A DNA stretch of 46,572 nucleotides, from positions 1 through 46,572 of the forward strand of contig JAJXZF010000037.1 of assembly GCA_021780225.1 (NCBI GenBank), in the 5' to 3' direction. The notes beneath the pieces were generated by a model that ran no database searches, was not told the origin of the DNA, and saw nothing but the letters and a program-made list of their open reading frames with translations. The DNA comes from Deltaproteobacteria bacterium (lineage in GTDB: Bacteria; Desulfobacterota; Binatia; Binatales; Binataceae). This document shows positions 396-40,240 of this stretch, piece by piece. Numbering within the stretch: the first letter of the stretch is position 1; each line of letters starts with the position of its first letter. The position numbers were made by a program, and so were the translations under genes.

Positions 396-417
396 CAGAA
401 CCGCTTTGCCGCGCGAA

Positions 418-1847: not shown

Positions 1848-1851
1848 TGCA

Positions 1852-8681: not shown

Positions 8682-8732
8682 GCCTGTTGGTCATTCTGAA
8701 CAGCGCGTGGCGGAGCGAAAGCCCGCCTTGCG

Positions 8733-9452
8733 TTACTGCCGCGCGGCATCGGTTCGCCATTCGGAAAGAATACAGAGGGAATCTCCGGGCAGATCGTTTT
8801 TGAGAAACAATGCGGTTAGAGCGGTCGCGATATTCCGCGTCAGTCTTGTGCCGTTTCCGCTTTTTGCCGGAAAAGTCCATCGGGAACGAATTGTAAGGCC
8901 GTAACGAGACAGCATCCGCTCGAAGCACGTCACGAAAACCGGGGAAACGTGCGTCGGCTCGGCGGACACGTTGGTAGGATCGAATCCGGCCAATTTACCC
9001 GAAAGCGCGAACCTCAGACGCGCCCGAAGCGAGTGGACATTCGGCGTCGTCATCAAAAAAAGACCACCCGGCTCCAAATGTTTGGCCACGTTTTCAAGCA
9101 GCAATCCAGGATTCAGGAGGTGTTCGATCACTTCGATCGCCGTTATCAATCCGAATCGTTTTGAGCCCATCCCGATGTCGCGGTCGAGGCTCGCATGATG
9201 GAAGGCGATTGGGATCTTCGCGTGCGGTTGAAACCGAACGAAAGATTCGTTGTCAATTCCCGTTAAATTATTGAATCCCCTGTCCGCCAATCGAGCCAGC
9301 CACGCTCCGGACCCGCACCCAAGGTCAAGGATTTGCGTGTCGAAGCGAATCGACGGAAGTCCGACAATTCGCTCGATAAGATCCTCATGCAATCCGGGCA
9401 GGGTCAACTCTTCGCGAATAATCTCGGTCTTTTCAGATTCAGGCGATTGCAA
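8733..9452 (-). CDS. Class I SAM-dependent methyltransferase
   Basis: 239 residues from TTG 9452, two bases after the upstream glycosyltransferase stop. Motif I is ILDLGCGSGAW at residues 41-51, GIDNES is the acidic strand 2 end near 69-74, AIEVIEHLLNPG is post-I near 105-116, and LEPGGLFLMTTPNVHS follows near 127-142. TTPNVHSLRARLRF is typical of the Methyltransf_23 group found in lipopolysaccharide clusters. Acceptor unknown; probably a sugar hydroxyl or a lipid-linked intermediate. The base composition is lower in GC than its right-hand neighbours, similar to the 418-2850 genes, which suggests this part of the operon was acquired separately. Confidence 0.83.
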   Translation of the reverse strand: MQSPESEKTEIIREELTLPGLHEDLIERIVGLPSIRFDTQILDLGCGSGAWLARLADRGFNNLTGIDNESFVRFQPHAKIPIAFHHASLDRDIGMGSKRFGLITAIEVIEHLLNPGLLLENVAKHLEPGGLFLMTTPNVHSLRARLRFALSGKLAGFDPTNVSAEPTHVSPVFVTCFERMLSRYGLTIRSRWTFPAKSGNGTRLTRNIATALTALFLKNDLPGDSLCILSEWRTDAARQ

Positions 9453-9454
9453 AA

Positions 9455-10627: not shown

Positions 10628-10647
10628 TGGTTGTGAAAGCGTGGCGT

Positions 10648-11889
10648 TCAGATCGCCGGCCGCGCGCGGGTTTCTCCCGCGGCGCCTTCATAAATCGGAA
10701 TCAATTCGTTCGCGAGGCGTTCGCGCGTGAAGCGGCGGCGGGCGGCGATTGCGGCCGCTGCGCCCAGGCGCGCGCGCAAATCGCGATCGGCGGCGAGCCG
10801 CGCGATCGTGCGGGCCAGCTCGGCCGCGTCGCCCGGCGGATGGCCAAGGGCTTCCACGCCATCGGCGAAGAGTTCCACGGCCCCTCCCGCGGCGCTGGCG
10901 ATGACGGCCTTTCCGCACGCCATCGCTTCGGCGATCGCCAGGCCGAATGGCTCCGGCGCCGTGCTCGCGTGCACCACGACGTCGAGCGCGCGGATCGCCG
11001 CGGGCGCGTCGGCGACGAAGCCGGTGAATCCGATCCGATTATTCAGTCCGAGCGCGCCGGCGTAGCCGCGCAAATCGGAAAGCGCATGCTGGCTGCCAGC
11101 GGTTTCGTAAAGCGCGCCGCCGATCACGTAACCGCGCACGGGCGAATCCGCCGGGAGCGCGGCGAGCGCGCGCAGAAACGTGCGATGGCCTTTCCAGCGC
11201 GCGAGCGTGGCGATCAGGCCGACGCGCACTCCGCCCTCGCCGAGCGGCGGCACACCCGCAAGGCGATCGAGGTCGAGCGCAGGTCCGGCCGGCGAAAATC
11301 GTTCGAGATCGATCGCGTTGTGGACGGCGAAGACGGTCGCGCGGCCGCCGAAAAGGCGGCGCGCGTCGCCGGCGACGCTGTGCGAATTGGCGACGATCGC
11401 GGCGGTGCGCCGGGCGTGCGCTTTCAACAAGCGCGACATCATCGGGCGCGCCCGCACGTAGTCATGCAGATGCCAAACCAGCGGCGTCGTCCGCGGTGCC
11501 GCCCATGCGCCCAGGACATGCATTTTGAAACCATTGGTATGGATGACGTCGGGAGCGCAATCGACGATCGCACGCCTGAGCGCGCGCGCGTAGCCGACGA
11601 TCGCGGGAGCCGCCGCGGCGACTCGGCCGGCGACCGCGAGCGGATTGCTGTGATCGCCCGCGGGTCCGCCGGCCGCGGCGTCGCCCAACTGGGAGACCGC
11701 GCGCGGAAATTTGATCACCGCGGCGCCGACGCCCATCGCGCGCGCTTCTTCGACCAACGCGCCATCGGCCGCGGCAATCAGCTTCAGGCGCCATCCGGGC
11801 CGCGCTTCGGCAAGGCTGGCCATCACGTCGAGCAGGGCGCGTTCGGCGCCGCCGGAACTGCCGGCGGGGTTAAGGAACAGCAGATTCAT
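10648..11889 (-). CDS. Glycosyltransferase family 4
   Basis: 413 residues from ATG 11889, overlapping the end of the ligase/TPR gene by 20 bases. The N-terminus NLLFLNPAGSSGGAERALLDVM shows the glycine-rich GGAE loop of the acceptor domain, and WHLHDYVRARP gives the H-x-H strand. The donor domain starts at GLIATLARWKGH and the E-x7-E region is PEPFGLAIAEAMACGKAVIA at around 310-330. DGVEALGHPPGDAAEL at the end is the usual sugar-nucleotide pocket. It resembles the family members that begin exopolysaccharide repeat assembly after the first lipid-linked sugar, but that order is inferred only from operon position. Confidence 0.89.
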   Translation of the reverse strand: MNLLFLNPAGSSGGAERALLDVMASLAEARPGWRLKLIAAADGALVEEARAMGVGAAVIKFPRAVSQLGDAAAGGPAGDHSNPLAVAGRVAAAAPAIVGYARALRRAIVDCAPDVIHTNGFKMHVLGAWAAPRTTPLVWHLHDYVRARPMMSRLLKAHARRTAAIVANSHSVAGDARRLFGGRATVFAVHNAIDLERFSPAGPALDLDRLAGVPPLGEGGVRVGLIATLARWKGHRTFLRALAALPADSPVRGYVIGGALYETAGSQHALSDLRGYAGALGLNNRIGFTGFVADAPAAIRALDVVVHASTAPEPFGLAIAEAMACGKAVIASAAGGAVELFADGVEALGHPPGDAAELARTIARLAADRDLRARLGAAAAIAARRRFTRERLANELIPIYEGAAGETRARPAI

Positions 11890-14794: not shown

Positions 14795-14853
14795 GGCGTT
14801 GCGGCCAACTTGCGAAGCGGAGCCGGAGCGGCCGGCGAATTGATCCAATCTAC

Positions 14854-17220
14854 TCAGGCGTATTCGTCTTCGTCTGCGCGTTGGTCGGCGCCGTAAGCGT
14901 AGTAATCCTGATGGTAATAGTAGTGGTAGTCGTGGCTGTGCAATTTAATCTTATTGAGCACGACGCCCAGAATTTTCGCTCGCGCGTATTCGAGCCGCGC
15001 GCAGGCGGTTCGAACCTGCTGGCGCGGCGTCGCCGAACCGTTCGCCACGACCACGACGCCGTCGGTCAGTTTTGCGAGCACCATCGCGTCGCTCACCGGC
15101 AGCACCGGAGCGCAATCGATGACGATATATTCGTAATTCCCGCGCAACTGGCCGACGAGCTCGATCATCCGTTTCGAGTTGAGCAATTCGGTCGGATTGG
15201 GCGGGACCGATCCGGAGCCGAGGAAGTAGAGATTTTCGATTTCCGTCGCGCGAATCATCTCCTGCGGCTCCCGCGCGCCGGTTAACACTTCGGTCAGACC
15301 GAGATGATTGTCGACCGCGAGCACGCGATGGCACCGGGCGCGCCGCAAATCGGCGTCAACCAGCAGCACCGGGCCTCCGAGTTGCGCGAGCATCACGGCC
15401 ATATTCACCGACGTGACGGTTTTGCCCTCGCGGCTGGTGGCGCTGGTGAACAGCGTGACCTTGGGCGGGCCGCCCGCGCGCGACATCAGAAGCGCCGTGC
15501 GCAGATTGCGGTAGGCTTCGCCCACGCGCGAATAAGTGCCGTGCGTGGTGACCAGTTCGCGGCCGGGCGGCAGCACGGCCGCGGCGCCGCCCGCGCCGAA
15601 GCCTTGCGGCAGATCGCGCGGAGCGTAGGCGCTCTTCCCATTGATACTCGAGAATTCGGGCACTACGCCAAGGTTGGGAAGGTGCAGATATTGTTCCGCT
15701 TCCTCCGGATTTTTAAGCGTATTGTCAAGCATTTCGAGCAAAAAGGCCGCGCCGAGACCGAGTCCGAGTCCGCCAAAGATGGAAACCGCGAAATTCCGCG
15801 ATTTGTCGGGACTGGTGGGCGCGCCCGGCGCTTCGGCCGAATTGATCACCGAAACGTCGTTGTTGCGCGTGTCGCCGGAGACCTCGACGTCTTTGACCCG
15901 TTTGAGAATCGCGTTGTAAAGCTCGCGGTTGGTGTCGACGTCGCGCTGCAGGATCGCATATTGCGCGGCGGAGTCGTTGAGCTTTAAAGTCTCCTGCCGC
16001 TGCAAGTCCATCTCGGCCTGCAGGTCTTTTTCCTTTTCGACCGCTTCATCGTACTGGGATTGAATCGCGGCGACCTTTTTTTGCACGGTGAGCGCGACGC
16101 GCGCCTGCATCTCGCGAATTTGCGCGTCGAGTTTGGCCAGCGGCGGATAGTTGTCCTTGAACTGGTTCGCCAGCGCCGCGCGCTGCGTGTACAGTCCGTC
16201 GAGCTCCTTGTCGGCGGCTTGAATTTCCGGGTCATCGAGCACCGCGGCCAGCGAGTTGTAGTCGCGCCTGCGGATTAATGCGATTTGCGCTTCAAGACTG
16301 ATCCGCGCGACTTGCGCTCTGGTCAAATCGCCGCTCAAAGCCGTCAGCCGGTCGAGGACCACGGCGTCTTTGCCATCGAGCGAAATCAATCCGGGAATGA
16401 TGCCTTTTTCGCGGCGGTAGTCGTTGAGCGCCGCCTCTGACTTTTCGAGATGGTCCTTGACCTCCAGCAACTTGTCCTGCAGGTAGCGCTGGGCTTCTTC
16501 GTTGGCTTGGCCGTGCATCTCGGCGTCCTGTCTTTCATATGCAAGGACGTGGGCGTTGGCGATATGCGCGGCGAGTACGGGATCGGACCAGCTGAAAGAG
16601 ATCTTGATGAGATCCGTGTCCGGCAGCGGCTTGACCGACATCGATCCCTGGTAGGCGTGCACAAGGCCGGCCGGCACGCCGAGATCGTTGTCGAATTCCC
16701 CGCCGATGCGGACGTTTTTATGGCGATGGGAAGCGGCGTCGGAGCCGCCGGCGATACGCGAAATGACCCGGTCGAAAATGCCGGGTTTGGCGGGAGCGCC
16801 GACGAACGCCGGGTTTTGCTGCAAGCCGAGCGATTTGATCACCGAGGCCGCCAGCGCGCGGCTTTGCAAAATTGCGCACTGGGTTTTGTAGTAAAGATCG
16901 GTATCGTTCGCCGCCGCCTCGATCTGGACGAGGTCCTCCAGCGTGTTGGAACTGTTACCCACGCCGGCGGGCTGAATCATGATCGTGGTTTCGGCGGTGT
17001 AGATCGGCGTTTCAGTCATCGTCTTGATCATCACGAGCATCACGACGCCGACCAGGATCGCGATGATCAGGCGATGACGTTTGACCACGATTCGCCAGTA
17101 TTGACTGATATCGATCAGGGGCTGCCCTTGATCGACGAATACCGGCGAAGCCTCGGTTTCGATCGGCGGTTCGGCCGGCAGATCGCCGGAGCGCCGGATG
17201 TAATAGCGCGAAGGTTCCAT
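14854..17220 (-). CDS. wzc: Polysaccharide co-polymerase with BY-type tyrosine autokinase domain (Wzc type)
   Basis: 788 residues from ATG 17220, sharing one base with the wza stop (TGATG). A Wzz domain starts at about residue 37 (PLIDISQYWRIVVKRHRLII with a first membrane helix), followed by a long periplasmic coiled-coil part, then a second helix near 475-495 (FAVSIFGGLGLGLGAAFLLE). The C-terminal kinase has Walker A SATSREGKT near 592-600, Walker A' PVLLVDADLRR near 620, Walker B YIVIDCAPVLPVSDA near 700, and a tyrosine-rich tail (seven Tyr in the last 30 residues, HDYHYYYHQDYYAYG) that is the expected autophosphorylation cluster. It controls chain length and couples synthesis to export through Wza. 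Fused single-chain architecture is typical of Gram-negatives. Confidence 0.95.
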   Translation of the reverse strand: MEPSRYYIRRSGDLPAEPPIETEASPVFVDQGQPLIDISQYWRIVVKRHRLIIAILVGVVMLVMIKTMTETPIYTAETTIMIQPAGVGNSSNTLEDLVQIEAAANDTDLYYKTQCAILQSRALAASVIKSLGLQQNPAFVGAPAKPGIFDRVISRIAGGSDAASHRHKNVRIGGEFDNDLGVPAGLVHAYQGSMSVKPLPDTDLIKISFSWSDPVLAAHIANAHVLAYERQDAEMHGQANEEAQRYLQDKLLEVKDHLEKSEAALNDYRREKGIIPGLISLDGKDAVVLDRLTALSGDLTRAQVARISLEAQIALIRRRDYNSLAAVLDDPEIQAADKELDGLYTQRAALANQFKDNYPPLAKLDAQIREMQARVALTVQKKVAAIQSQYDEAVEKEKDLQAEMDLQRQETLKLNDSAAQYAILQRDVDTNRELYNAILKRVKDVEVSGDTRNNDVSVINSAEAPGAPTSPDKSRNFAVSIFGGLGLGLGAAFLLEMLDNTLKNPEEAEQYLHLPNLGVVPEFSSINGKSAYAPRDLPQGFGAGGAAAVLPPGRELVTTHGTYSRVGEAYRNLRTALLMSRAGGPPKVTLFTSATSREGKTVTSVNMAVMLAQLGGPVLLVDADLRRARCHRVLAVDNHLGLTEVLTGAREPQEMIRATEIENLYFLGSGSVPPNPTELLNSKRMIELVGQLRGNYEYIVIDCAPVLPVSDAMVLAKLTDGVVVVANGSATPRQQVRTACARLEYARAKILGVVLNKIKLHSHDYHYYYHQDYYAYGADQRADEDEYA

Positions 17221-18563
17221 CAGAATGGCACCGCAGGTCCCATGACGCCCATCCGCGACAGGATTTGGTAGAAAATGTAGGGACCGATCCTGACGTTGGA
17301 GTAGGGCACGTCGATTACGTCATTCGCTTTGACAGGAATGTCGGGTTCTTTACCGTTGGTGATCTTGGCCAGATTGATGGCGACAGTTTTCTTGGCGCCG
17401 TCCTTGTCTGTCCGAATCAGCGTGATGTCGGCCGTATCCGCGGCGTACATCGGGCCTCCGGCCGCGCCAATCGCGCCCATCACCGTCAGGCCGGAGCCGA
17501 CCGAAAAATAACCCGGCGTCTGCACCCAGCCGACGACCATCACGTTGCCGCCCCCCGGCACCACGATCACATCTCCGGGCCTGAGCGGCATGTTGATATA
17601 TTTCCCCGCGCCCGAGAGCGAGGTGCTGTGGATTTTGATGGTTAGCGGATGCGCGTTCGGGGGCAACAGCCGGAGCGCATTAGCGGCGATATCCGGCTCC
17701 AGCGACGCATGCTGCTCGGCGTTAATCCGCTGGGCGTGGGCGTTGAGCGCGGCGTTGCCGCCGGGAATTTCACGGCCCGCGTGATGCGGCGCGATTTGTC
17801 CGGCCGGCGGCGGAGCGCCGTTGCTGGTTCCTTCGCCGGACGCTGACGGCAGCGGTTCTCCGGCGCCGGGCGCCGAATTGTACGCAACCATCGAGACCTG
17901 TTTGGCCATGTTCAGCCCGGTTCCGGCTTGCGCGGGAATCAGGATCAATTCGTCCGCGGCCGACGAAACCAGGCCGCCAGCCTGAGTGAGCGCGTCAAGA
18001 ATCGTTTCGTCCGGACTTTCCAGCGTCACCAGACCGGGACGGTTGACCGCGCCAATCACCGCGACTTCGCGGTTGTGATATTCGTTGACGAACACCGAAG
18101 CCTGCGGGCTGTACATGTACGCGCTGAGTTTCTGATCGAGCGCCGCTTCGAGTTGTTCCTCCGAAAGCCCTCCCGCTTGCACCGCGCCGATCAGTGGCAA
18201 TTCGAAAGTTCCAGCCGTGGTCACGCGAACTTTCAAATCCTGGATTTCGGGAACTTGCGGAACAGTGATCGTTAAAACGTCGCCGGGGCCGATCGGATAA
18301 TCGTCGTTCGAGGAAATTTGCGCGGTGCGCGCGGCCCAGAGCTTGTCCAGATCGGGATCGTCCGGTTGCGGCGCATCCTGACTCGCGGCGGCGGCGCTCG
18401 CGGTCACGTCCGCCTTCTCCACGTGCATCGGATCGCTGCTGCCGCATCCCGTAAGGAGCGATCCCGCCGCGATCAGCAGGCCCATGAAGAGCCTCAAACC
18501 CAACGCGGCCGCGGATGAGGAAGCGGCGCGCGTGCGGAAGTTTTCTGTAATGGTTTCTGTCAA
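17220..18563 (-). CDS. wza: Outer-membrane polysaccharide export lipoprotein (Wza type, SLBB domains)
   Basis: 447 residues. A lipoprotein signal ends in lipobox LLTG-C with Cys at residue 40. The poly_export domain begins at DDYPIGPGDVLTITVPQVPEI and continues to about 165 (FVNEYHNREVAVIGAVNRPG starts the first SLBB). A proline/alanine-rich insert of roughly 80 residues (SAPGAGEPLPSASGEG onward) separates it from a second SLBB region (MPLRPGDVIVVPGGGNVMVVG and following), longer than in Escherichia coli Wza. It should form the outer-membrane channel through which the glycan leaves, contacting Wzc on the periplasmic side. It is translated with wzc by stop-start coupling. The start at 18563 gives a basic n-region only at residues 10-12; a start nearer the signal is possible. 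Confidence 0.93.
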   Translation of the reverse strand: MTETITENFRTRAASSSAAALGLRLFMGLLIAAGSLLTGCGSSDPMHVEKADVTASAAAASQDAPQPDDPDLDKLWAARTAQISSNDDYPIGPGDVLTITVPQVPEIQDLKVRVTTAGTFELPLIGAVQAGGLSEEQLEAALDQKLSAYMYSPQASVFVNEYHNREVAVIGAVNRPGLVTLESPDETILDALTQAGGLVSSAADELILIPAQAGTGLNMAKQVSMVAYNSAPGAGEPLPSASGEGTSNGAPPPAGQIAPHHAGREIPGGNAALNAHAQRINAEQHASLEPDIAANALRLLPPNAHPLTIKIHSTSLSGAGKYINMPLRPGDVIVVPGGGNVMVVGWVQTPGYFSVGSGLTVMGAIGAAGGPMYAADTADITLIRTDKDGAKKTVAINLAKITNGKEPDIPVKANDVIDVPYSNVRIGPYIFYQILSRMGVMGPAVPF

Positions 18564-29012: not shown

Positions 29013-30239
29013 ATGAGCGCAGCGAATCCGATTCACGTTCTGGAAGGGTACAAAGTCCTCGATTTCACCCAATTCGTCGCTGGACCGACGGTGACCCTGA
29101 TGATGGCGGAGATGGGCGCCGAAGTGATCAAGATCGAGGTCGCGCCGGCCGGCGATCCGAGCCGCGTCTGGCCGGTCCAGAAAGACGGCCGCAGCGGCTA
29201 CTTCGTGCAGCATAATCGCGGCAAGCAGAGCCTCTGTCTCGACGCGAAAAGTCCCGAAGGACTGGCGATTCTGAAAGAGCTGGCGGCGAAAGTGGACGTG
29301 ATCGTCGAGAATTTCGCGCCCGGCGTGATCGCGCGGCTCGGCTTTGGTTATGACGTCGTCAGCAAGCTCAATCCGCGGGTCGTGATGTGCTCGGTGTCGG
29401 CGTTCGGCCAGAGCGGGCCGCTGGCGCACGAGCCGGGTTTCGATTGGAGCGGCGCCGCGTATGCTGGCACGCTGCACATGATCGGCCTGCCCGACGGCCA
29501 GCCGATCGTGCCGACGATCGCGATCGGCGACGTTTCGACCGGCGTGCACGCGCTCGGCGCGGTCGCCTGCGCGCTGCTCTATCGCGAGCGCACCGGCAAG
29601 GGCCAGCATATCGATTGCGCGCTGCTCGACAGCTATTTCCACTATCACGAAGCGCCGGTGCAGCTTCAGAGCCTGAGCGCCGGCGCGATCCGGCCGAAAC
29701 GGATGGGCAGCCATGCGACCTACACGGCGCCGGCCGGCATCTTCAAAGGCCGCGAGCGTTATTTCGTCATCTTCGCGCAAATCGATCATCTGTGGGCGAA
29801 ACTGTGCGCCGCGATGGGCCGTCCGGAGCTCACCAACGATCCGCGCTTCGCCGACAATTCCGGCCGCGTCGCGCATCTGGACGAACTGGTCGCGCTGATC
29901 GAGGAATGGATCGCATCGTTGCCGGGCGACGACGCCGTGATGGCCGCGTTGCGCGAGCATCGCGTGCCCTTCGCTCCCGTGCTGACGCTCGAAGAGGCGA
30001 TGAACCATCCGCATCTGCGCCAGCGCGGCACCGTGCGGCGGGTGCGCGACCGGATGCTCGGCGAATTCGACGTGCCGGGCTTTCCGCTGCGCTTTTCGGA
30101 ATTTCCGCGGACCCTCGAACTGCAGGCGCCGACGCTCGGCGAGCACAACGAGCCGGTGCTCGCGCGCCATCTCGGCTACGCGCCCGAGCAGGTCCGGGCG
30201 CTCGAAGCGAAAGGCGTGCTGCATCGCGGCGAGCGCTGA
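29013..30239 (+). CDS. CaiB/BaiF (family III) CoA-transferase
   Basis: 408 residues from ATG 29013 with AAGGGGAG upstream. The family III fold is shown by LEGYKVLDFTQFVAGPTVT, EMGAEVIKIEVAPAGDPSR and YFVQHNRGKQSLCLD. The catalytic aspartate is Asp173 in IAIGDVSTG, and GPLAHEPGFDW plus ERTGKGQHIDCALLD complete the usual signature. These enzymes move CoA between carboxylates (for example formyl-, succinyl- or carnitinyl-CoA) and activate acids before beta-oxidation. The very similar next gene implies duplication and either a hetero-oligomer or two substrates. The specific acids cannot be inferred. Confidence 0.9.
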   Translation: MSAANPIHVLEGYKVLDFTQFVAGPTVTLMMAEMGAEVIKIEVAPAGDPSRVWPVQKDGRSGYFVQHNRGKQSLCLDAKSPEGLAILKELAAKVDVIVENFAPGVIARLGFGYDVVSKLNPRVVMCSVSAFGQSGPLAHEPGFDWSGAAYAGTLHMIGLPDGQPIVPTIAIGDVSTGVHALGAVACALLYRERTGKGQHIDCALLDSYFHYHEAPVQLQSLSAGAIRPKRMGSHATYTAPAGIFKGRERYFVIFAQIDHLWAKLCAAMGRPELTNDPRFADNSGRVAHLDELVALIEEWIASLPGDDAVMAALREHRVPFAPVLTLEEAMNHPHLRQRGTVRRVRDRMLGEFDVPGFPLRFSEFPRTLELQAPTLGEHNEPVLARHLGYAPEQVRALEAKGVLHRGER

Positions 30240-30278
30240 CCGTAAATTTTGACTTCACGACATATTGGGGAGGCGACG

Positions 30279-31505
30279 ATGAATCCGGGAATTGGCCGGC
30301 ACGTACTCGAAGGTTATCGCATACTCGATTTTACACAGGTGGTGGCGGGACCAACCACGACGCTGATGCTCGCCGAAATGGGGGCGGAGGTGATCAAGGT
30401 CGAACTCGCGCCGGCCGGCGATCCGGGGCGTCTCGGCCCCGTGCGAATCGGCGAGCGCAGCGGCTATTTTGTGCAGCATAACCGGGGCAAAAAGGGCATT
30501 TGCATCGATCCCAAAAATCCGGAAGCGCGCGCGATCCTGCGCGAGCTTGTTACGCGCGTCGATGTGCTGGTGCAAAATTTTGCGCCGGGCGTGATCGACA
30601 GGCTCGGCCTCGGCTACGAGGCCGTGCGCGCGATCAATCCGAAAATCGTGATGTGCTCGATTTCCGCCTTCGGCCGGACCGGGCCGCTCGCGATGGAACC
30701 CGGCTTCGATTATCTCGGCGCGGCGTACGCCGGGATCGCTTCGATGGGCGGCGAGCGGGATGGCGCGCCATATATTCCGATGATCGCGATCGGCGACGTT
30801 TCAACCGGCGTGCACGCGATGGGCGCGATCTGCGCCGCGCTGCTCTACCGCGAACGCACGGGGCGCGGCCAGCATCTCGACATCTCCCTGCTCGATACTT
30901 ATTTCCACTACCACGAGGCGGGTGTCGAAACGCATGCGCTGAGCCGCGGCGAAATCCGGCCGACCCGTTCCGGATTGCACTCGTGGTACGCCGTGCCTTC
31001 CGGCGTTTTTCGCGGCCGCGAGCGCTACATCATCATTATCGCGCCGCTCCAGCACCATTGGCGGAAATTGTGCGTGGCGATGGGGCGGCCGGAATTGGCC
31101 GACGACCCGCGCTTCGCCACCAACGAGGATCGGCTCCGCAATCTCGATTCCCTGATCGAGACGATCGAAGGCTGGATTCGCTCGATGCCGAGCGACGACG
31201 ACGCGATCGCGGCGATGCGCGAACAGCGTGTGCCGATGGCGCCGGTGCTGTCGGTGGAGGAAGCCGTGCGCCATCCGCATCTGCGCGAGCGCGGCACGGT
31301 CAGAACGATTCGCGATCGCATCCTCGGCGAGTTCGACGTTCCCGGATTCGCGCTGCGTTTCTCCGATTTCCCCGAGCCGCTCGCGCTCGACGCGCCGCTG
31401 ATGGGCGAGCATAACCGCGAAGTGCTGACCGGACTGCTCGGCTATACGGACGAACGCGTGCGCGATCTCGAAGCGCGCGGCGTGCTCCGCCGCGGCGAGA
31501 CCTGA
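30279..31505 (+). CDS. CaiB/BaiF (family III) CoA-transferase, tandem paralogue
   Basis: 408 residues, the same length as its neighbour, from ATG 30279 chosen over an upstream ATG at 30249 because a strong GGGGAGG sits just before it and MNPGIGRHVLEGYRILDFTQ aligns with the paralogue. The catalytic aspartate is again residue 173 (AIGDVSTGVHAMG). YFVQHNRGKKGICID, ERTGRGQHLDISLLD and the C-terminal VLTGLLGYTDERVRDLEARG parallel the first copy throughout. Only 39 bases separate the genes, so one transcript is likely. Differences cluster in the middle (SYFHYHEAPVQLQ versus TYFHYHEAGVETH), where acyl-group selectivity is expected. Confidence 0.9.
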   Translation: MNPGIGRHVLEGYRILDFTQVVAGPTTTLMLAEMGAEVIKVELAPAGDPGRLGPVRIGERSGYFVQHNRGKKGICIDPKNPEARAILRELVTRVDVLVQNFAPGVIDRLGLGYEAVRAINPKIVMCSISAFGRTGPLAMEPGFDYLGAAYAGIASMGGERDGAPYIPMIAIGDVSTGVHAMGAICAALLYRERTGRGQHLDISLLDTYFHYHEAGVETHALSRGEIRPTRSGLHSWYAVPSGVFRGRERYIIIIAPLQHHWRKLCVAMGRPELADDPRFATNEDRLRNLDSLIETIEGWIRSMPSDDDAIAAMREQRVPMAPVLSVEEAVRHPHLRERGTVRTIRDRILGEFDVPGFALRFSDFPEPLALDAPLMGEHNREVLTGLLGYTDERVRDLEARGVLRRGET

Positions 31506-33243: not shown

Positions 33244-34470
33244 TTATTCGTTGACGATTGTTGGAAAATGCACGCGAAAGATCGTGCCGGCGCGCTTTTC
33301 GCTCACCACCTCGACGCGAGCGCCGTTCAACTCGACGTAGCGCTTCACCAACGCAAGGCCCAGCCCGGCTCCTTCGAATCGCCGCGTCGTGCCTGCGGCC
33401 TCCTGTGAAAACGGCTCGAACAGATTCGGCAAATAGAGCGGATCGATGCCGACGCCGGTATCCGCGACCTCAAGGCAGACCGCGTTGCCGGTTTCGCTGA
33501 AAATTCGCAGTGCGACATAGCCCGAATCGGTGAACTTGATCGCGTTCTGCAGCAGGTTGGTGATGGTGTTCGACAGGCATTGCTCGTCGAACATCACGGT
33601 GGCGTCGGGCGATTCGACGTGCAGTTCCAGTTCGAGCCCTTTTTTGCGGGCCAGCACGCCGAGGTCGCGCACGTGACGTTCGACCACGGCCGCCAGCCTG
33701 ATCGGAGCGGGCCGGACTTCGTAGGCGCCCGACTCGATTCGCGACAGATCGAGGATCGCGCCGATCGTCGCCAGCAGGCGGTTGCCCGCGCGATGGATCG
33801 AGTCGGCGTACTGGGCGCCGCTTTCGTCGCGCAAGTCCGCCAGCCGTTCGGCCATCAGATCCGCATAGCCGAGAATCACATTGAGAGGCGTGCGAATTTC
33901 GTGCGTGACGTTGGCGACGAACGCGGACTTCAACCGCGACGCTTCCAGCGCGGCGTCGCGCGCCGCGATCAAAGTTCGCTCCGACTCCGCAACCTGTTCG
34001 CGGTACAGCCGCGCATAGATCATCGTCAGCGTTTCCGCGGTTTCGTTCCAGATCCTTGCATAAGCGAGCCGCGCCTTGAGCACGGCTTCAGGCGGACCGC
34101 TCAGGACCTGGAGCAGGGCTTCGCGCACTTCGTCGCGCAAGCTCTTCGAGAAATCATACAGATCTTCGATTTTGGCGCGTCCCGCGGGCGCGGGACGCAT
34201 CCGATCGCGCATCTGCCGCTCCAGAATCCGGCCGTACTGCGCGATCGCTCCCTCAGGGTCGCTGTTCGCGAGCCGCTCGAACAGCGAGCGCAGAAATTCA
34301 AATCCCATCGCCGCGACCGTGGCGCGAATCGCCTCGCGTTTTTCCTTCGGCGCATCGATCGGCAATCGTTGCGCCCAGCGTTCGGCGAGGGATTCAAGGT
34401 TTGGCTGGAGCCGCCGTGCGGTGTCGGCGACCAGCTTGAGTTCTTCGGCGCTGAAATCCGAATTCTTCAC
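33244..34470 (-). CDS. Soluble sensor histidine kinase
   Basis: 408 residues from GTG 34470. No membrane helix is visible, so the sensor is cytoplasmic. Residues 1-150 are helical (LQPNLESLAERWAQRLP onward) and resemble the RsbRD N-terminal domain used by stressosome-type sensors. The dimerisation/phosphoacceptor helix is FVANVTHEIRTPLN with His190. The ATPase domain has N-box NLLQNAIKFT, G1 DTGVGIDPLYLPNLFEPFSQ and G2 GAGLGLALVKRYVEL. No receiver domain or response-regulator gene is adjacent, so its partner is elsewhere. It is divergent from the electron-transfer module, with which it shares the upstream region; a regulatory link is possible but unproven. Confidence 0.9.
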   Translation of the reverse strand: MKNSDFSAEELKLVADTARRLQPNLESLAERWAQRLPIDAPKEKREAIRATVAAMGFEFLRSLFERLANSDPEGAIAQYGRILERQMRDRMRPAPAGRAKIEDLYDFSKSLRDEVREALLQVLSGPPEAVLKARLAYARIWNETAETLTMIYARLYREQVAESERTLIAARDAALEASRLKSAFVANVTHEIRTPLNVILGYADLMAERLADLRDESGAQYADSIHRAGNRLLATIGAILDLSRIESGAYEVRPAPIRLAAVVERHVRDLGVLARKKGLELELHVESPDATVMFDEQCLSNTITNLLQNAIKFTDSGYVALRIFSETGNAVCLEVADTGVGIDPLYLPNLFEPFSQEAAGTTRRFEGAGLGLALVKRYVELNGARVEVVSEKRAGTIFRVHFPTIVNE

Positions 34471-34819
34471 ATTTCGCAGGCTGCGCGGGCGGGCGGAAAC
34501 CGTCCTAAAACTTTACGGGTCGAATCTGAGCACGAGATATTAAGCGTAGGTATGAATTGTGTCAAAGCTAATTTTGCGGCCATTGTCGTCAGTTGGTTTT
34601 TATCGCCGAAATAAGTGCGAATTTTGAACCATAGTCAGCTTTATTCATTCCGATTATGAAATATATTGGATTATCTATTTTTGACCGCCAAATATCCATC
34701 ATGGGCGACGGGTCGTGTTCTGTGGTCCGTTGAGGTCATTTTCGAAATGAACCGGCGGCAGCGGCGCGAATTGAAAGCGACGGCCGCTCGATCGGCGGCA
34801 GTTATGCGCGCTCGCGCGA
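34471..34819. other. AT-rich divergent promoter region
   Basis: 349 bases between the histidine kinase and the electron-transfer module. The centre (34520-34710) is much richer in A/T than neighbours and contains several TTTG/CAAA and ATATT motifs, including TTTG-ACCGC-CAAA near 34678-34690, a short palindrome. It probably carries both divergent promoters. I could not identify a certain -35/-10 pair or a full CRP/FNR consensus site. Confidence 0.4.
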
Positions 34820-34878
34820 TTGACATCCAAAAAGCGCCAAGGCTTACTCGGTTTGGTGGCGAACGATCCTGCGAATGA
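34747..34878 (+). CDS. Possible 43-residue basic protein
   Basis: ATG 34747 opens MNRRQRRELKATAARSAAV, a start typical of small basic conserved proteins, and the frame stops at 34878, overlapping the next gene by 59 bases in another frame. GAGG lies 12 bases upstream, too far to be convincing. It may be a leader peptide or noise; no family is recognised. Confidence 0.22.
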   Translation: MNRRQRRELKATAARSAAVMRARAIDIQKAPRLTRFGGERSCE

Positions 34879-36430
34879 GCGCGTTCCGCCGTGGCTGCTG
34901 TGGCGGCGGCTTACGGCGCTCGACATTTTCAGCCGCTTCAGCGACGAACAACGCGACACGTTCCTGAAGGCGTACGAACAGGATTCCGCGATGCGGACGC
35001 GGGAGTTCAAAGCCGGCGAGATAATCTGCCGCAAGGGCGAATACGAACTCGACCTGTGCTGCATTTTGACCGGCGGCGTCGATTTGCGCGACGACAGCGG
35101 TCCCGAGGAGGCGCATTTCGTCGCGACGCTTAAAGCCGGCAATCTGTTCGGCGAACTCGGCGCGATCGGCGGCCTGCCGCGCACGGTTGACGTCGTCGCG
35201 CGCGAGGAAACCGAGATTTTCTACATTCCGCGCCACGCCCTGAAGCACGTCGAGATCAATCAATACGCGCGCGAGGCGCTGGCGCGGCGCTATCGCGATC
35301 GCGCCGTGCGCATCGCGGCGATCGAAAATGAGCTGTTCCGCGGCGTGCCGCTCGAACGCATCGATGAACTTGCGGAAAAATGCGAAATTCTGCGCTACGA
35401 TCTGCGCGGCATCCCGATCGTCACGCAGGGCGAACCGGGCGACGCCCTCTATATCGTGCGCGACGGCTTCGTGCAGGTGGCGCGCCGGCGCGAGGACGGA
35501 AGCCATCGCGTGCTCGCCTATCTGCGCGCGGGCGAATATTTCGGCGAGATGGCGTTGTTCGAAACGGGCGTGCGCTGGGCCAGCGTGCTCACCGCCGGCA
35601 AATGCGAGCTGATCAAAATCCATCGCGATGAATTCCTCGATCTGTGCCGGCGCTTTCCGCAGGTCGAAGAGAGCGCGCGCAAGGCGATCGAGCGCCGCCG
35701 CGAGCAGGAACGCAACGTGACCGCGGAGCTTTCGGATTTGCTCGAACGCAGCGGCCAGCTCGGAGTGATTCAGGCCGACGCGCTGCTGGTGATGGACCTC
35801 GACCTGTGCATCAACTGCGACAATTGCGTCAAAGCCTGCGAAGCGTTACACGGCCGCAGCCGCCTGATCCGCAACGGCATCAAGCTGGGCCACTATTTGG
35901 TGCCGAGCGCCTGCCGCCACTGCGACGATCCGAAATGCATGAACAGTTGTCCGACCGGCGCGATCAAGCGGCGGCCCGAAGGCGAAATCTATTTCCAATA
36001 CGAGATGTGCATCGGATGCGGCAATTGCGCGATCGCATGTCCTTACGACAATATCGCGATGATCGACGCGCCGACGTTCGATCGGGCGCAGGCGCGCAAG
36101 TCGCGAACGATGAATGACGCCAATTTCTACCGTCCGTTTCCCGCCGCGGCGCACGATATCGGCGAGCCGGGACTCTGGTCGCGGCTGTTCGGCGCGCCGC
36201 GCGGCGGCGGCTCCAAACGCAAACCGGCGCGGGCCGCGGGCGTGCGGGAACATACGCCGCCGGCGTTTCCGATCAAATGCGATCTCTGCGACGGCCTGCC
36301 CTTCATGGGCTGCGTGCATAATTGTCCGACCGGCGCCGCGATCAGGATCGATCCGGCGAAACTCTTCGAAGAGACCGGCGCCATCAGCGAAGGGTCGCGC
36401 GTGCGCAAAGCGCGCGGCGGCAGCGATTAA
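34820..36430 (+). CDS. Dual cyclic-nucleotide-binding domain fused to a four-cluster [4Fe-4S] ferredoxin
   Basis: 536 residues from TTG 34820 (GTG 34856 is an alternative). Two CRP-type cNMP-binding domains are visible: residues 35-140 with phosphate-binding cassette FGELGAIGGLPRTVDV and 170-275 with FGEMALFETGVRWASV; the first has the expected Arg at 121, the second Arg at 252. A linker helix then leads to ferredoxin cysteines at 330/333/336/340, 365/368/373/377, 397/400/403/407 and 487/490/498/502, the pattern of HybA/DmsB/NrfC-type electron-transfer subunits carrying four [4Fe-4S] clusters. No DNA-binding helix-turn-helix and no signal peptide, so a cytoplasmic, ligand-regulated electron carrier is likely. 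Coupled with the two next genes. Confidence 0.9.
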   Translation: MTSKKRQGLLGLVANDPANERVPPWLLWRRLTALDIFSRFSDEQRDTFLKAYEQDSAMRTREFKAGEIICRKGEYELDLCCILTGGVDLRDDSGPEEAHFVATLKAGNLFGELGAIGGLPRTVDVVAREETEIFYIPRHALKHVEINQYAREALARRYRDRAVRIAAIENELFRGVPLERIDELAEKCEILRYDLRGIPIVTQGEPGDALYIVRDGFVQVARRREDGSHRVLAYLRAGEYFGEMALFETGVRWASVLTAGKCELIKIHRDEFLDLCRRFPQVEESARKAIERRREQERNVTAELSDLLERSGQLGVIQADALLVMDLDLCINCDNCVKACEALHGRSRLIRNGIKLGHYLVPSACRHCDDPKCMNSCPTGAIKRRPEGEIYFQYEMCIGCGNCAIACPYDNIAMIDAPTFDRAQARKSRTMNDANFYRPFPAAAHDIGEPGLWSRLFGAPRGGGSKRKPARAAGVREHTPPAFPIKCDLCDGLPFMGCVHNCPTGAAIRIDPAKLFEETGAISEGSRVRKARGGSD

Positions 36431-36451
36431 GCCGCGGGCTGAGCGAGCAGG

Positions 36452-37354
36452 GTGGGCGAGCGAATAGGCGAGGCCGCTGATCGGCGTCATACCGCTCCGG
36501 TGGCGTCGGTGACCTTGTGGGCCGCGATTTGCGCCGCGGCGGTCGCGGCAGTTCACGCGCTGACCTCCGGCGTCGGGCCGCGGCTTGGATCCTACCGCAC
36601 CGGTCTGATCACGCTGGGCGTATTCCTGCTCGCGGCGCTTTACAGCGCGCGCAAACGATCGCTCTGGTTCTCCGTGCGATGGCTGCGCGCCGCGGCGCAT
36701 CTGCCGCGTTCGATCGCGCGGCGGATGGTCACGATCGATCGGCTTGAAACCTGGCGAACGATCCACATCGCGCTCGGAATTTTCGCGCTGCTGCCGTTTT
36801 GGTGGCATGCCGACGCCGGTCCCGCGACGCCGCTCGAACGGCTGATTCTCGTGCTGGTCTTTCTGATCGTGGCGAGCGGTCTGGGCGGCTTGTTGATCCA
36901 CGACCTGTTGCCGCTGGCGATGCGCAAGCGGCCGGATTATGAGGTGCGCCTGGAGGACGTCGAGACCGCGTACCGTCAGATTTATATCGAGGCCGAAGAG
37001 ACGATCCTCGGCCATTCGGAAGAGCTGGTGCGGATTTATCTGGCGGAAGTGCGTCCGCTGCTGACCGGTTCGCAGCCGCCGGCGCGCTTGTTTCTTGCGA
37101 TGCTCACGGGCCGCGATCCCGCCGCCGCCGCATGCGGCCGCGCCCGCCGTGCGGCGGCCGCTTTGCCCCTCGATCGGGAGTTGTTCGAGCGGCTGATCGA
37201 CCTGGCCGCGACCAAAATCCGGCTGGAGATGAATCGGTTCAACTTGCTCATGAGCGCGGCCTGGCTGGTTTTTCATATCGTGCTGGCCGCCACTTTGAGC
37301 GTCACCGTCGTCTTTCATATCGCCGGCGCGCTTTATTACGTGGGTCTGCGATGA
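36452..37354 (+). CDS. Membrane protein, putative two-haem b-type cytochrome (ferric-reductase-like)
   Basis: 300 residues from GTG 36452. Five hydrophobic segments at about 18-38, 48-66, 102-120, 128-150 and 265-298. Helix 3 has His105 and His119 and the last helix has His275 and His289; each pair is 14 residues apart. Four histidines in two helices with this spacing is the haem-ligand pattern of ferric reductases and NADPH oxidases, where they bind two stacked b haems spanning the membrane. Between helices 4 and 5 lies a 115-residue charged cytoplasmic or periplasmic loop, which is unusual. I know no named family that matches. Its stop overlaps the next start as ATGA, so it is made with the cytochrome-flavoprotein. 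Confidence 0.72.
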   Translation: MGERIGEAADRRHTAPVASVTLWAAICAAAVAAVHALTSGVGPRLGSYRTGLITLGVFLLAALYSARKRSLWFSVRWLRAAAHLPRSIARRMVTIDRLETWRTIHIALGIFALLPFWWHADAGPATPLERLILVLVFLIVASGLGGLLIHDLLPLAMRKRPDYEVRLEDVETAYRQIYIEAEETILGHSEELVRIYLAEVRPLLTGSQPPARLFLAMLTGRDPAAAACGRARRAAAALPLDRELFERLIDLAATKIRLEMNRFNLLMSAAWLVFHIVLAATLSVTVVFHIAGALYYVGLR

Positions 37355-39633
37355 GGCTGGCGGCTTTTATCGCCGGCGCGATCGTGATCGCATTCGTCGG
37401 CGCGATGCTTGCGACGCATCGCAGCTACGAACCCGGGCCGTTGCTCGCCGCGCATCAGACGATCTCCGGCGGCTGCGCCTCCTGCCACGCGCCCTGGCGC
37501 GGCGTCCAAAACGAGCGATGTATCGCCTGCCACGGATCGATCGAGGACATGAATCCGCACGGCGGGCTCGACGTGTCCGCGAGCGTCGACGGCCTGGTTG
37601 CGGGGCGGAAATTGTTCGTTACGCCCGACAACGAATTGACCTGCCGCAGCTGCCATAGCGAGCATCAGGGCGCGCATGTCGAGCTCGAAGCGACGGCCAC
37701 TTTCGCCTGCCAATGGTGCCACAAGCATCCGTCGATCGAGAGCGTGCAGGAGCATATGGCGGCGTTCATGCAGCGGCATGAGGCGGCCAGCTATACGTTT
37801 CGCAAGCTTTTCAACCATCACGAGCACAAGCTGCTGATAGATTCGCACGCTCCGGCGATCCCCGGCGGCTTTCGTTGCGAATCGTGCCATTCGATCGAAC
37901 CGGTCAAACCGCCCGGAGCGGAAAAGATGAGTCTCAAGTGGAGCGGATGCGCCGGCGTCGGCTGCCATATCGCGCCACAGGATTCATTTATCGAAATGCC
38001 CGCCGCGGCCGGAACGTCGCCGAAGACGCTCGCGTACACGTCGCGGGTGCTGCATATCAATGCGGTCTTTACGCATTCCCCCGGCCATCTGCGCACGTCA
38101 TGCGCCGAGTGCCATTCCGCGATGGCGTCGAGCGTCGCGCCGGACGACGATCCATCGCTGCGGATCGAACAATGCTTCAAATGCCATGCGCATCAAGCCG
38201 CGGCCGCAAAAATCGCCAGCAGCCGGCATGGTGGACTCACCGCGACAGCATTCGCGGCTGAAAACGGCGCGGCGGGCGGCTCGTCCGAGAAGCGTGTGAC
38301 AGCTTGTTCCGCCTGCCATATTTTCCACACGCACGGTCCCGTACCGTCGCACGATTTCACCAAACCCGCGCTCACGCGGTTGCCGGGAGCCGAAAAGCGA
38401 ATCGTCTGGACGTTTCGACTGCCGGCTTTAAGCGCGCATCGCTATGCTCGGTCGCCGTCGGCCGCTCGGACCATAACAGTCCGTCCGTGGCCGATCGGTC
38501 TCGCGGGCCTCGCGGTCGCCGCGCTATGCGTCTTCGGCTTGGTCATGATTCTGCCGAAGGCGCCGGTCGAGCCGGAGGCGATTGCGGGCGTCGCGCCGCA
38601 GCGCACGCGCGAAGTGCCGGCGCTCGACGATACTTTTCAGACCAGCGTGCGGCGCCTTTACGTCGTCGGGGAGGCGGCGGGCACCGCTTCGATCAATCTC
38701 GCGATGCGGTCGGGCCGGCAGGTGATTGAAGCGATCGCGGCGGAATTGCGCCGGCCGCCGCGATCGACCGATCCCAATCTGTACGATGTCTTGATTGTCG
38801 GTTGTGGTCCCGCCGGCCTTGGCGCGACCGCAACGGCGGCAAGCATGGGGTTGAATTACGTCAATCTCGAACGAATGACGCCGGCGAGCACTTTGCGTGC
38901 GTATCCGCGCGCCAAATTCGTGCAGGCGACGCCGATCGATATCGCCGAGTACGGTTCGTTTTTTCTCGAGGGCGACAATTCACGCGAACGTCTGATCGAG
39001 GAGTGGGAACGAATCATCGCGGATTTGAAACTGCGGATAAAGGATCGCGAAGAGGTTGTCGATATCGCGGCCGACGGCGAGCGCTTTTTTGTGCGCACGG
39101 AACGCGGCAACGTTTACCACGCCCGCGCTGTTGTCCTCGCGATCGGCGTGCGCGGCAATCCGCGCCATCTTGGGATGGCGGGCGAAGAGCCGGGACGGGT
39201 CTTTTACAATCTTATCGACGCCGGCGAATTCCATCAGCAGCAAATTCTGGTGGTGGGCGGCGGGAATTCCGGATCCGAAGTGGTTCAGGCGCTGGCCCGT
39301 CCGGAATTGGGCAATCATGTGGTGTATTCGTATCGCTCGCCGGTGCTGACCAACATTTCGCGCGAAAACGCCGAAAAGGTCAGTGATTTGCAACGCGCCG
39401 GCTTCGTCACCATCTTGCCGGCGACCGCGCTCAAGCGAATTTTGCCCGGCAAGGTGGTCCTCGAACGAGTCAAACGCGCGGCCGCGGCTGATTCGTCAGA
39501 AGTTGAAACGGCGGGTCCAATCGAGATCGCAAACGACGTCATCTTCGCGATGATCGGAGCCGAGCTGCCCACGGGATTTCTGCGCAAGATCGGCGTTCGA
39601 CTGATCCGCAAAGGCGGCATCGGCATAATCTAA
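37351..39633 (+). CDS. Nine-haem c-type cytochrome fused through a membrane helix to a FAD/NAD(P) oxidoreductase domain
   Basis: 760 residues from ATG 37351 (ATGA overlap). An N-terminal signal anchor (5-22) is followed by haem motifs at Cys42, 57, 98, 120, 176, 251, 275 and 319 (eight CXXCH) plus one CX4CH at 200-206. A second helix at about 380-400 returns the chain to the cytoplasm. The rest is a TrxB-like two-Rossmann flavoprotein: FAD loop VGCGPAG at 483-489 and NAD(P) loop VVGGGNSG near 634-641. It lacks the redox-active CXXC of thioredoxin reductase. A segment at about 433-462 (LYVVGEAAGTASINLAMRSG) looks like the normal C-terminal FAD-binding end of such proteins, here placed first. 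Probably links NAD(P)H oxidation to periplasmic haems. Confidence 0.9.
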   Translation: MRLAAFIAGAIVIAFVGAMLATHRSYEPGPLLAAHQTISGGCASCHAPWRGVQNERCIACHGSIEDMNPHGGLDVSASVDGLVAGRKLFVTPDNELTCRSCHSEHQGAHVELEATATFACQWCHKHPSIESVQEHMAAFMQRHEAASYTFRKLFNHHEHKLLIDSHAPAIPGGFRCESCHSIEPVKPPGAEKMSLKWSGCAGVGCHIAPQDSFIEMPAAAGTSPKTLAYTSRVLHINAVFTHSPGHLRTSCAECHSAMASSVAPDDDPSLRIEQCFKCHAHQAAAAKIASSRHGGLTATAFAAENGAAGGSSEKRVTACSACHIFHTHGPVPSHDFTKPALTRLPGAEKRIVWTFRLPALSAHRYARSPSAARTITVRPWPIGLAGLAVAALCVFGLVMILPKAPVEPEAIAGVAPQRTREVPALDDTFQTSVRRLYVVGEAAGTASINLAMRSGRQVIEAIAAELRRPPRSTDPNLYDVLIVGCGPAGLGATATAASMGLNYVNLERMTPASTLRAYPRAKFVQATPIDIAEYGSFFLEGDNSRERLIEEWERIIADLKLRIKDREEVVDIAADGERFFVRTERGNVYHARAVVLAIGVRGNPRHLGMAGEEPGRVFYNLIDAGEFHQQQILVVGGGNSGSEVVQALARPELGNHVVYSYRSPVLTNISRENAEKVSDLQRAGFVTILPATALKRILPGKVVLERVKRAAAADSSEVETAGPIEIANDVIFAMIGAELPTGFLRKIGVRLIRKGGIGII

Positions 39634-39811
39634 ACGGACGCGCGCCGGATGAGGCGGTTTATCGAGACTGGCCGAATTTTGCCGCCGCCATCGCGATGTA
39701 TGGCATGCGCTGGTCTTTGATTAATTAAGGGTATTAAACTACAGATTAGGAGGAAGCTCCTCAGGAACGCGGATTGCTTCCTGTTCTGGTCGGAAAGGAG
39801 CCGGTGAAGTC

Positions 39812-40240
39812 ATGCGACCCGCTACAATCTTTCTTGCTTATGCCGTCTTTTTTTCTTTCGCTCTGGTGCTTGCGTCTGAAGCGCGCACCGACGCCAACGT
39901 GCCCGCGGCGCAGGTCAACGTAGTCAGCGGGACGGTTTCGGATCCGCTTGGGCAGCCGGTGCCGGGAATCAAGATTTCGCTCACCGATTGGTTCGGCCAG
40001 ACTTGGGGGAGCGCCGTGACCGATCTTCACGGTCATTACGAAATTAGCGGAGTCCAGCCCGGAAAATATTTTGTCCGCGTCCTCGCCCTGAGAGACTCCG
40101 GGCGAGGCGTGTACTATCGCGTCCGAGTGAAGGGCAATTCGCCGCGGATGGATATCCGGCTGAATTCCAACGTCTCCGCAATTGCGCTGGCGCCGATTCC
40201 GCGGGCGTCGGGCCATCTCGCTTCGATGCCGCGCGCCTGA
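39812..40240 (+). CDS. Small secreted protein with a carboxypeptidase-regulatory-like domain
   Basis: 142 residues from ATG 39812, with AAAGGAG upstream. A signal peptide (PATIFLAYAVFFSFALVLASEA, cut near SEA) precedes one Ig-like CarboxypepD_reg fold: VVSGTVSDPLGQPVPGIKISL, then DLHGHYEISGVQPGKYFVRV. The end (NSNVSAIALAPIPRASG) is unstructured. Similar single-domain proteins are often periplasmic and of unknown function. It lies 178 bases after the cytochrome-flavoprotein, so it may be a separate unit; the gap holds AT-rich sequence near 39718-39745 that could be its promoter. The same fold occurs in the protein at 18683-19210. Confidence 0.8.
   Translation: MRPATIFLAYAVFFSFALVLASEARTDANVPAAQVNVVSGTVSDPLGQPVPGIKISLTDWFGQTWGSAVTDLHGHYEISGVQPGKYFVRVLALRDSGRGVYYRVRVKGNSPRMDIRLNSNVSAIALAPIPRASGHLASMPRA

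Follow-up and report, generated by a model that had tools for sequence, protein, structure and literature searches.

Transmembrane flavocytochromes of the NADPH oxidase/ferric reductase type pass electrons from NAD(P)H through a flavin to two b haems across the membrane. In DsrMKJ(OP), a cytoplasmic iron-sulfur (FeS) protein is combined with a membrane diheme cytochrome b and a periplasmic multihaem cytochrome c, with DsrK being HdrD-like and DsrP NrfD-like. Respiratory electron carriers are mostly controlled through their expression. CbcL of Geobacter sulfurreducens, like the locus described here, pairs a diheme membrane cytochrome b with a periplasmic nine-haem, bis-His cytochrome c (PMC9129911), and no FeS, cyclic-nucleotide-binding (CNB) or flavin part is described in excerpts of the accounts of its family (PMC9129911, PMC6295460). 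We analysed contig JAJXZF010000037.1 of the Binataceae assembly GCA_021780225.1; the window, meaning the whole stretch of DNA analysed, is 46,572 nucleotides long and is an entire contig of a 3.8-Mb genome. A tight operon of three genes on its + strand (34856-39633), all three open reading frames (ORFs) of which were verified, probably encodes one inner-membrane redox complex that would act as an electron wire. The grouping of the three genes as a module is well supported, and the set appears not to have been described before, since full-text searches, whose coverage excluded most subscription journals and all preprints, found no description of it among the papers listed. Its features are the following.

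34856-36430, + strand: gene 1, two CNB domains followed by a DmsB/HycB-like four-[4Fe-4S] ferredoxin domain
35000-35245, + strand: CNB domain 1 (CNB1), PF00027 match and pocket residues, motif FGELGA...PR
35408-35653, + strand: CNB domain 2 (CNB2), PF00027 match and pocket residues, motif FGEMAL...RWASV
35807-36340 (approximate bounds), + strand: four-[4Fe-4S] domain, 16 conserved cysteines
36452-37354, + strand: gene 2, membrane cytochrome b with two predicted bis-His haems and a soluble-looking loop at about residues 160-260
37351-39633, + strand: gene 3, N-terminal transmembrane (TM) anchor, nine-haem cytochrome c, second TM helix, and permuted TrxR/YpdA-like FAD/NAD(P) domain
37474-38319, + strand: nine haem c sites (eight CXXCH and one CX4CH)
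38494-38550, + strand: second TM helix of gene 3, residues 382-400
38584-38775, + strand: displaced FAD-binding segment, ahead of the first Rossmann motif
38776-39630, + strand: flavoprotein core with the FAD Rossmann motif GCGPAG, the second nucleotide-binding motif GGGNSGSE, and no CXXC

A first-pass annotation of this DNA had described three tightly coupled genes, and this was verified in the window, where genes 1 and 2 are separated by a 21-nt gap (36431-36451) and genes 2 and 3 are joined by ATGA (37351-37354). Genes 2 and 3 also overlap by 4 or 1 nt in all 15 relatives that could be measured, with start codons picked by script. The same annotation had begun the region at a TTG at position 34820; because an in-frame stop separates the codon matching this one from a common Val codon in five of the six relatives inspected, the start of gene 1 should be GTG 34856 instead. 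Besides the start codon, it had overlooked the permuted flavoprotein, the alternative fusions and the FHA-bearing relatives described below.

When gene 2 alone was used as the query, 20 of 57 genomes were matched (its own included), 16 of them strongly, and the full-strength matches fell in 16 of the 35 genomes of the family, including all seven of the genus. Genes 1 and 3 adjoin gene 2 in the same order in each of the 16 fetched loci (four of which are cut by contig ends), and the homologues are thus not scattered without synteny. All three genes were matched at 13 close named loci, which are largely the same contigs as the 16 fetched loci. Flanking genes were common to fewer Binataceae neighbourhoods (at most 9 of 17, for an RRM gene; some neighbourhoods are short), and the trio is therefore taken as the unit. 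Across 148 genomes of the class, the gene 2 profile matched the same 16 genomes and, weakly, G046 (G and L numbers are our own handles for genomes and loci); the gene 3 profile matched at near full length only in the same 16, with the flavin part alone matched in G353, G038, G372, G378, and G383; and the profile of the CNB-FeS protein (gene 1) matched the same 16 genomes as well as divergent forms in another 18. Because those 16 genomes supplied the profiles, their own matches arise by construction, and for genes 2 and 3 the informative part is that no other genome had a full-strength copy. With the CNB-FeS profile, G024, one of the 16, in which the gene is split between contigs, scored under three genomes of other families. 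When 395 genomes of the phylum were searched with this profile, matches outside the class came from 14, which were not counted as having the system because their matches cover the CNB part only (profile positions to 305 of 526). A plasmid search with gene 2 gave no match. Chance or mis-called ORFs were rejected as an explanation, given conservation across genera and invariant cofactor motifs, and the patchy distribution in the family (16 of 35) may reflect gene loss or lateral transfer. Variants of the locus were also seen: at L041 (7801-11217, - strand) the CNB-FeS gene is tandemly duplicated ahead of one cytochrome b/cytochrome c-flavoprotein pair, genome G008 carries two diverged copies of the complete operon (L037 and L042), and a diverged cytochrome b relative at L044 (6594-7430, - strand; G010:C1) has no gene 1 or gene 3 match within the 13 kb fetched around it.

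The wider family was sampled in two groups, Binatia and Myxococcota, by taking all 18 of the divergent Binatia genomes and 21 of 37 Myxococcota places (34 of 329 genomes), that is, 20 fetched places plus L062, itself among the 37, with 16 left out. The resulting 57 CNB-FeS proteins include that of the window and both tandem L041 genes (one shared cytochrome b, with the second gene 1.9 kb away), and the cytochrome b profile used for this set was built with nine sequences from other Binatia and none from Myxococcota. A cytochrome b adjoins or is fused to the CNB-FeS protein in 53 of the 57; L109 and L119 have no adjoining one despite room, and L062 and L115 stop at the contig edge. A multihaem c ORF with four or more sites lies downstream in 47, none being found on the same strand at L110, L180, and L185 despite room, and 35 have a flavoprotein no more than 8 kb away. 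Three kinds of two-module fusion occur: CNB-FeS with cytochrome b (L175, L176, L177, L183, L186, and L188), flavoprotein with CNB-FeS (L119, L180, L182, L184, L185, and L187), and cytochrome c with flavoprotein (the window and Binataceae, L043, L171, L175-L177, L183, L186, and L188). We therefore argue for one complex, and we regard these swapped fusion partners as strong evidence that the modules would be physically associated. FHA domains were found by Pfam in some relatives (L043 and L045), and extra multihaem cytochromes of the c554, c7, or c3 type stand beside several CNB-FeS loci. At L113 (2952-5408, - strand) and L117 (11213-13648, + strand), one protein combines an apparently unpermuted TrxR-like flavoprotein with FHA-like repeats and a plant-type 2Fe-2S-like C-terminus (the last two recognized by eye), and it sits beside a CNB-FeS/cytochrome b/decahaem operon. 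At positions 1-3159 (- strand) of L109 and 8890-10728 (+ strand) of L045, large multihaem proteins with c554-type domains are encoded near CNB-FeS genes, the L109 protein also having an LVIVD repeat.

Gene 1 had been described as encoding a protein with two cyclic nucleotide monophosphate (cNMP) domains and four [4Fe-4S] clusters, and this description held. PF00027 matched two stretches of it with 130.3 bits against a cut-off of 27.5, and 4Fe-4S families of Pfam were matched above cut-off. The 16 cluster cysteines are near-invariant in the alignment of the 57 proteins, window included, with 13 columns being Cys in 57 of 57 and the other three in 54 of 57, 56 of 56, and 55 of 57. Hydropathy indicated no membrane segment in gene 1. 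Its match to the DsrO model of NCBIfam (59.1 bits) was far under the cut-off of 200, and no molybdoenzyme was found among the scanned neighbour genes.

Gene 2 matched no Pfam family over cut-off, the best being DUF4079 (E 0.015), and the earlier suggestion that it encodes a two-haem cytochrome b was strengthened by its histidines. In the ungapped cytochrome b sequences, window included, H105 and H119 are kept in 52 of 52 and H275 and H289 in 50 of 50, forming two H-x13-H pairs, so that each of two helices carries two His 14 apart. This spacing, repeated in a pair of helices, is the classic way of holding two b haems one above the other in a membrane. We read five TM helices in gene 2, four flagged by hydropathy plus helix 100-122, which contains H105 and H119 and is present in the AlphaFold model. 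Residues 66-101 are Arg-rich (nine Lys/Arg and two Asp/Glu), which suggests that this side of the protein is cytoplasmic; H105 and H275 would lie on the cytoplasmic side and H119 and H289 on the periplasmic side. No cytochrome b was among the best 50 of 155 PDB matches to the model, and the profile found none by sequence. For cytochrome b561 (PF01292), gene 2 was unmatched at E 0.1 and the best of seven relatives reached 25.0 bits against a cut-off of 30.1, and the cytochrome b of L108 weakly matched Ferric_reduct (E 0.0025).

The third gene had been read as a nine-haem cytochrome c fused to a flavoprotein, and both halves were recovered: eight CXXCH motifs and one CX4CH motif follow an N-terminal signal-anchor helix, and the flavin domain matched Pyr_redox_3 and Pyr_redox_2 over cut-off in Pfam. 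Nine haem c sites are present in all 15 relatives, and the odd CX4CH site, which has that form in the window and in 11 of the 15, aligns with a CXXCH in the other 4; on this basis, we consider the CX4CH haem site credible. The alternation, at 37948-37968 of the window (residues 200-206 of gene 3), is a natural change in the length of a haem motif. Beyond the nine motif histidines, 11 further His are invariant in 14 sequences and available as distal ligands, which is enough for nine bis-His haems, and the cytochrome would be of the electron-transfer instead of the catalytic type. A catalytic multihaem reductase such as NrfA was rejected because these 11 His would suffice for bis-His ligation of all nine haems. 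PF14522 matched one other small haem protein in the same genome.

The flavin domain has the fold of TrxR, YpdA, and the TrxR-type ferredoxin/flavodoxin NADP+ reductases (FNRs), with both nucleotide-binding motifs present, and the best 50 of 1828 PDB matches to the AlphaFold2 model of gene 3 were all of TrxR, YpdA, FNR, or AhpF types. In all 14 sequences compared, the C-terminal 360 residues of gene 3 are free of CXXC, and the first Rossmann motif, GCGPAG or GCGPSG in each, has Ala or Ser at what we take to be the position of the YpdA active-site Cys. FNRs likewise are not known to carry a CXXC. A thioredoxin or bacillithiol reductase was rejected since the required cysteines are absent, and so was YpdA/Bdr (103.8 bits against a cut-off of 339.9, with the active-site Cys missing). 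Compared to a TrxR-type FNR, the fold, the FAD and NAD(P) motifs, and the absence of CXXC are all found, and the standard order of segments is not. The segment DDTFQTSVRRLYVVGEAAG...GRQ stands before the first Rossmann motif; we take it to be the second FAD-binding segment, which presumably would normally follow the NAD(P) domain. Judged by this order, the gene 3 flavoprotein is circularly permuted.

A profile of the displaced segment matched right after the core in the unpermuted flavoproteins of L119 (core 26-288, segment 293-334), L180, L184, and L187 and right before the core in L171, L175, L176, and L177. Against the PDB, 24 of 29 listed matches of the segment were pyridine-nucleotide reductases, 2 were L-aspartate oxidases, and 3 were unrelated, each being insignificant (best E 0.05), and the three alignments printed cover what we take to be the second FAD-binding segment. 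With the flavin domain re-ordered, the YpdA match grew from profile positions 1-263 to 1-312 of 316 with a gain of only 0.8 bits and the Pyr_redox_2 match from 1-257 to 1-289 of 291 with a gain of only 1.5 bits, and the AhpF match fell by 2.1 bits; the permutation rests mainly on the relatives. Where it could be read, the flavoprotein is permuted if fused behind the cytochrome and unpermuted if fused before CNB-FeS; in L043, L182, L183, L185, L186, and L188, for which no permutation state is claimed, the segment was either not found or insignificant. Such a reordering of domains is consistent with a switch of fusion partner. Possible free-standing relatives of the permuted flavoprotein occur at G378:C219:1505-2485 and G383:C53:17343-18299.

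Taken together, these features suggest a route for electrons, most likely NAD(P)H to FAD to FeS to haem b to periplasmic c haems. A cytoplasmic flavin site exchanging hydride with NAD(P)H would feed single electrons to the four [4Fe-4S] clusters, which would pass them to the pair of b haems spanning the membrane, and these in turn would hand them to the nine low-spin c haems of the periplasm and a presumed partner there. The flavin domain would serve as a converter between hydride and single electrons, since it lacks thiol chemistry and is repeatedly paired with FeS proteins. Outward flow would be downhill for NAD(P)H, and inward flow would need the membrane potential.

Several points weigh against this reading. 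Hydropathy alone missed the haem-ligand helix 100-122, the AlphaFold model of the cytochrome b was weak, with a predicted local distance difference test score (pLDDT) of 69.6, and it matched nothing in the PDB at E 0.001 or better. The AlphaFold2 model of gene 3 was also weak (pLDDT 47.1), as expected for a fold that relies on nine haems. The fold of the flavin domain also covers thiol and peroxide enzymes. No flavoprotein was found near 13 of the 18 other-Binatia and 8 of the 21 Myxococcota CNB-FeS genes (some cut by contig ends), and G378 and G383 have the flavin match with no CNB-FeS match, so that a related flavoprotein can occur without CNB-FeS; the flavoprotein may therefore be an optional entry point. 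Lastly, the CNB pockets, whose Glu and Arg we take to be the phosphate-binding residues, are not uniformly conserved in the wider set (CNB1 Glu in 41 of 55 and Arg in 49 of 55; CNB2 Glu in 37 of 54 and Arg in 43 of 56).

This last point bears on what the CNB domains do. The first-pass annotation had interpreted the operon as a transmembrane electron-transfer module under possible cNMP control; the module is supported and the gating is a possibility, given that 14 of the 55 proteins have another residue for the CNB1 Glu and that the CNB2 Arg, kept in 13 of 17 Binataceae, is Ala in 4. That the domains are degenerate structural modules binding nothing, a view compatible with any other reading of the operon, is a substantial possibility, short of an even chance: the non-uniform pockets favour it, but all 17 Binataceae keep the Glu and Arg of CNB1, and Guanylate_cyc (class III cyclase) was matched four times over cut-off in the window's genome. 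We consider cyclic-nucleotide gating of the FeS carrier plausible and, since the pockets vary outside Binataceae and FHA or degenerate domains are alternatives, treat it as a hypothesis. Under the proposed outward wire, the CNB domains of the FeS protein would serve as a regulatory input, and their place on the carrier between flavin and membrane would be a natural position for a gate. We tentatively propose, at less than even confidence, a signal-gated wire in two bacterial groups, in which a second messenger would open or close the flow from NAD(P)H to the periplasm via CNB domains, or in some lineages phosphopeptide-sensing FHA domains, in the electron carrier, and in which the flavoprotein was permuted to switch fusion partner. 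If so, ligand-sensing domains in an FeS carrier could switch electron flow within seconds, and Binatia and Myxococcota would be able to link their cytoplasmic NAD(P)H pool to redox partners in the periplasm or outside the cell, a route that annotation by the names of the parts misses. Separately, the window's genome encodes at L023 (193-1920; G000:C17, about 90604) a channel-like membrane protein, MscS-like by eye, with a C-terminal cNMP-binding domain, and a Guanylate_cyc match lies about 2 kb from it (L120, G000:C17 92892-93410), a possible cyclic-nucleotide-gated channel and cyclase.

The same anatomy would also serve the opposite direction, with periplasmic electrons entering through the nine c haems, with the membrane potential driving them inward to produce NAD(P)H or reduced ferredoxin, and with the CNB domains as an on/off switch for a costly flow. 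Binatota are described, in the part of their genome paper available, as aerobic methylotrophs whose methanol and methylamine dehydrogenases feed the chain from the periplasm (PMC8262859), and relatives of CbcL, MtrH, and MtoC are thought, in an excerpt, to be bidirectional (PMC6295460). We nevertheless consider this reverse use unlikely, as the scanned neighbours (a CoA-transferase pair, an RRM protein, a kinase, hydrolases, and an antiporter) include no dehydrogenase partner, and uphill flow requires a coupling that is not evident in the anatomy.

A quinone-linked conduit, in which the diheme cytochrome b would exchange with quinol and feed the nine c haems while CNB-FeS and the flavin modulate it or form a side entry, is rather unlikely. 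CbcL, with its diheme b and nine bis-His c haems, is termed a quinone oxidoreductase in the consulted excerpt (PMC9129911); some relatives have no nearby flavoprotein, and the cytochrome b of L184 weakly resembles b561 (E 1.8e-5, under cut-off). The close tie of CNB-FeS to the cytochrome b, to the point of fusion, suggests instead that it is the main cytoplasmic electron partner, and no quinone site was identified, though none was systematically sought.

A redox sensor, in which clusters and haems would report the redox state of the membrane or periplasm and CNB or FHA domains would pass it on by recruiting or altering a regulator, is very unlikely. In its favour, the relatives found are defined by CNB domains and some of them also have FHA domains (L043 and L045 by Pfam, L113 and L117 by eye), both kinds being typical signalling domains, and a histidine kinase lies upstream on the opposite strand. 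Against it, nine to ten haems and four clusters are more than a sensor needs, and the kinase was found in 6 of the 17 Binataceae neighbourhoods, a number of which are too short to reveal it.

Elsewhere in the window, two tandem CoA-transferase family III genes lie at 29013-31505, their best NCBIfam matches being formyl-CoA transferase models under cut-off, and a probable exopolysaccharide cluster lies at 5951-18563 on the - strand, with glycosyltransferase, Wzz/GNVR with AAA domain, and polysaccharide-export/SLBB genes. The window yielded no Rfam or tRNA features, and within 34400-39900, there were 4 promoter-like matches against 1.5 expected, none of them on the + strand upstream of gene 1. 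In the available text of the Binatota genome paper, an aerobic chain with complexes I, II, ACIII, and IV is described, and the words "multiheme" and "cyclic nucleotide" are absent from its main text as far as that goes (PMC8262859); PMC11334425, in the part available, concerns FMN-bind proteins.

Compared to CbcL, in which the b and c domains form one polypeptide and the b part has six TM helices, the window and the fetched Binataceae loci have separate genes for the two, and five helices are read in gene 2; the window set also adds a four-cluster FeS protein, CNB domains, and a flavoprotein to these parts, whereas CbcL is quinone-linked. Gene 1 shares its four-cluster cysteine layout with ferredoxins of the DmsB/HycB/FdhB type and differs in that the ferredoxin part is fused behind two CNB domains. 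The flavin domain has the same fold and both nucleotide motifs of the TrxR-type FNRs and YpdA/Bdr (PDB 7a76, 7apr, 3ab1, and 6gar) but is circularly permuted, fused to a membrane cytochrome c, and without the YpdA Cys. The proposed wire would work like NADPH oxidase and ferric reductase, with a different flavin fold and with an FeS relay and nine c haems added. With DsrMKJ(OP) it has in common the overall plan of cytoplasmic FeS protein, membrane diheme b, and periplasmic multihaem c, but the Pfam matches of the three window proteins include no HdrD-like or NrfD-like domain, and a flavoprotein and CNB domains are present instead. We rate the kinship of this operon as being with transmembrane multihaem conduits, among which its built-in sensing domains and permuted flavoprotein are unusual.

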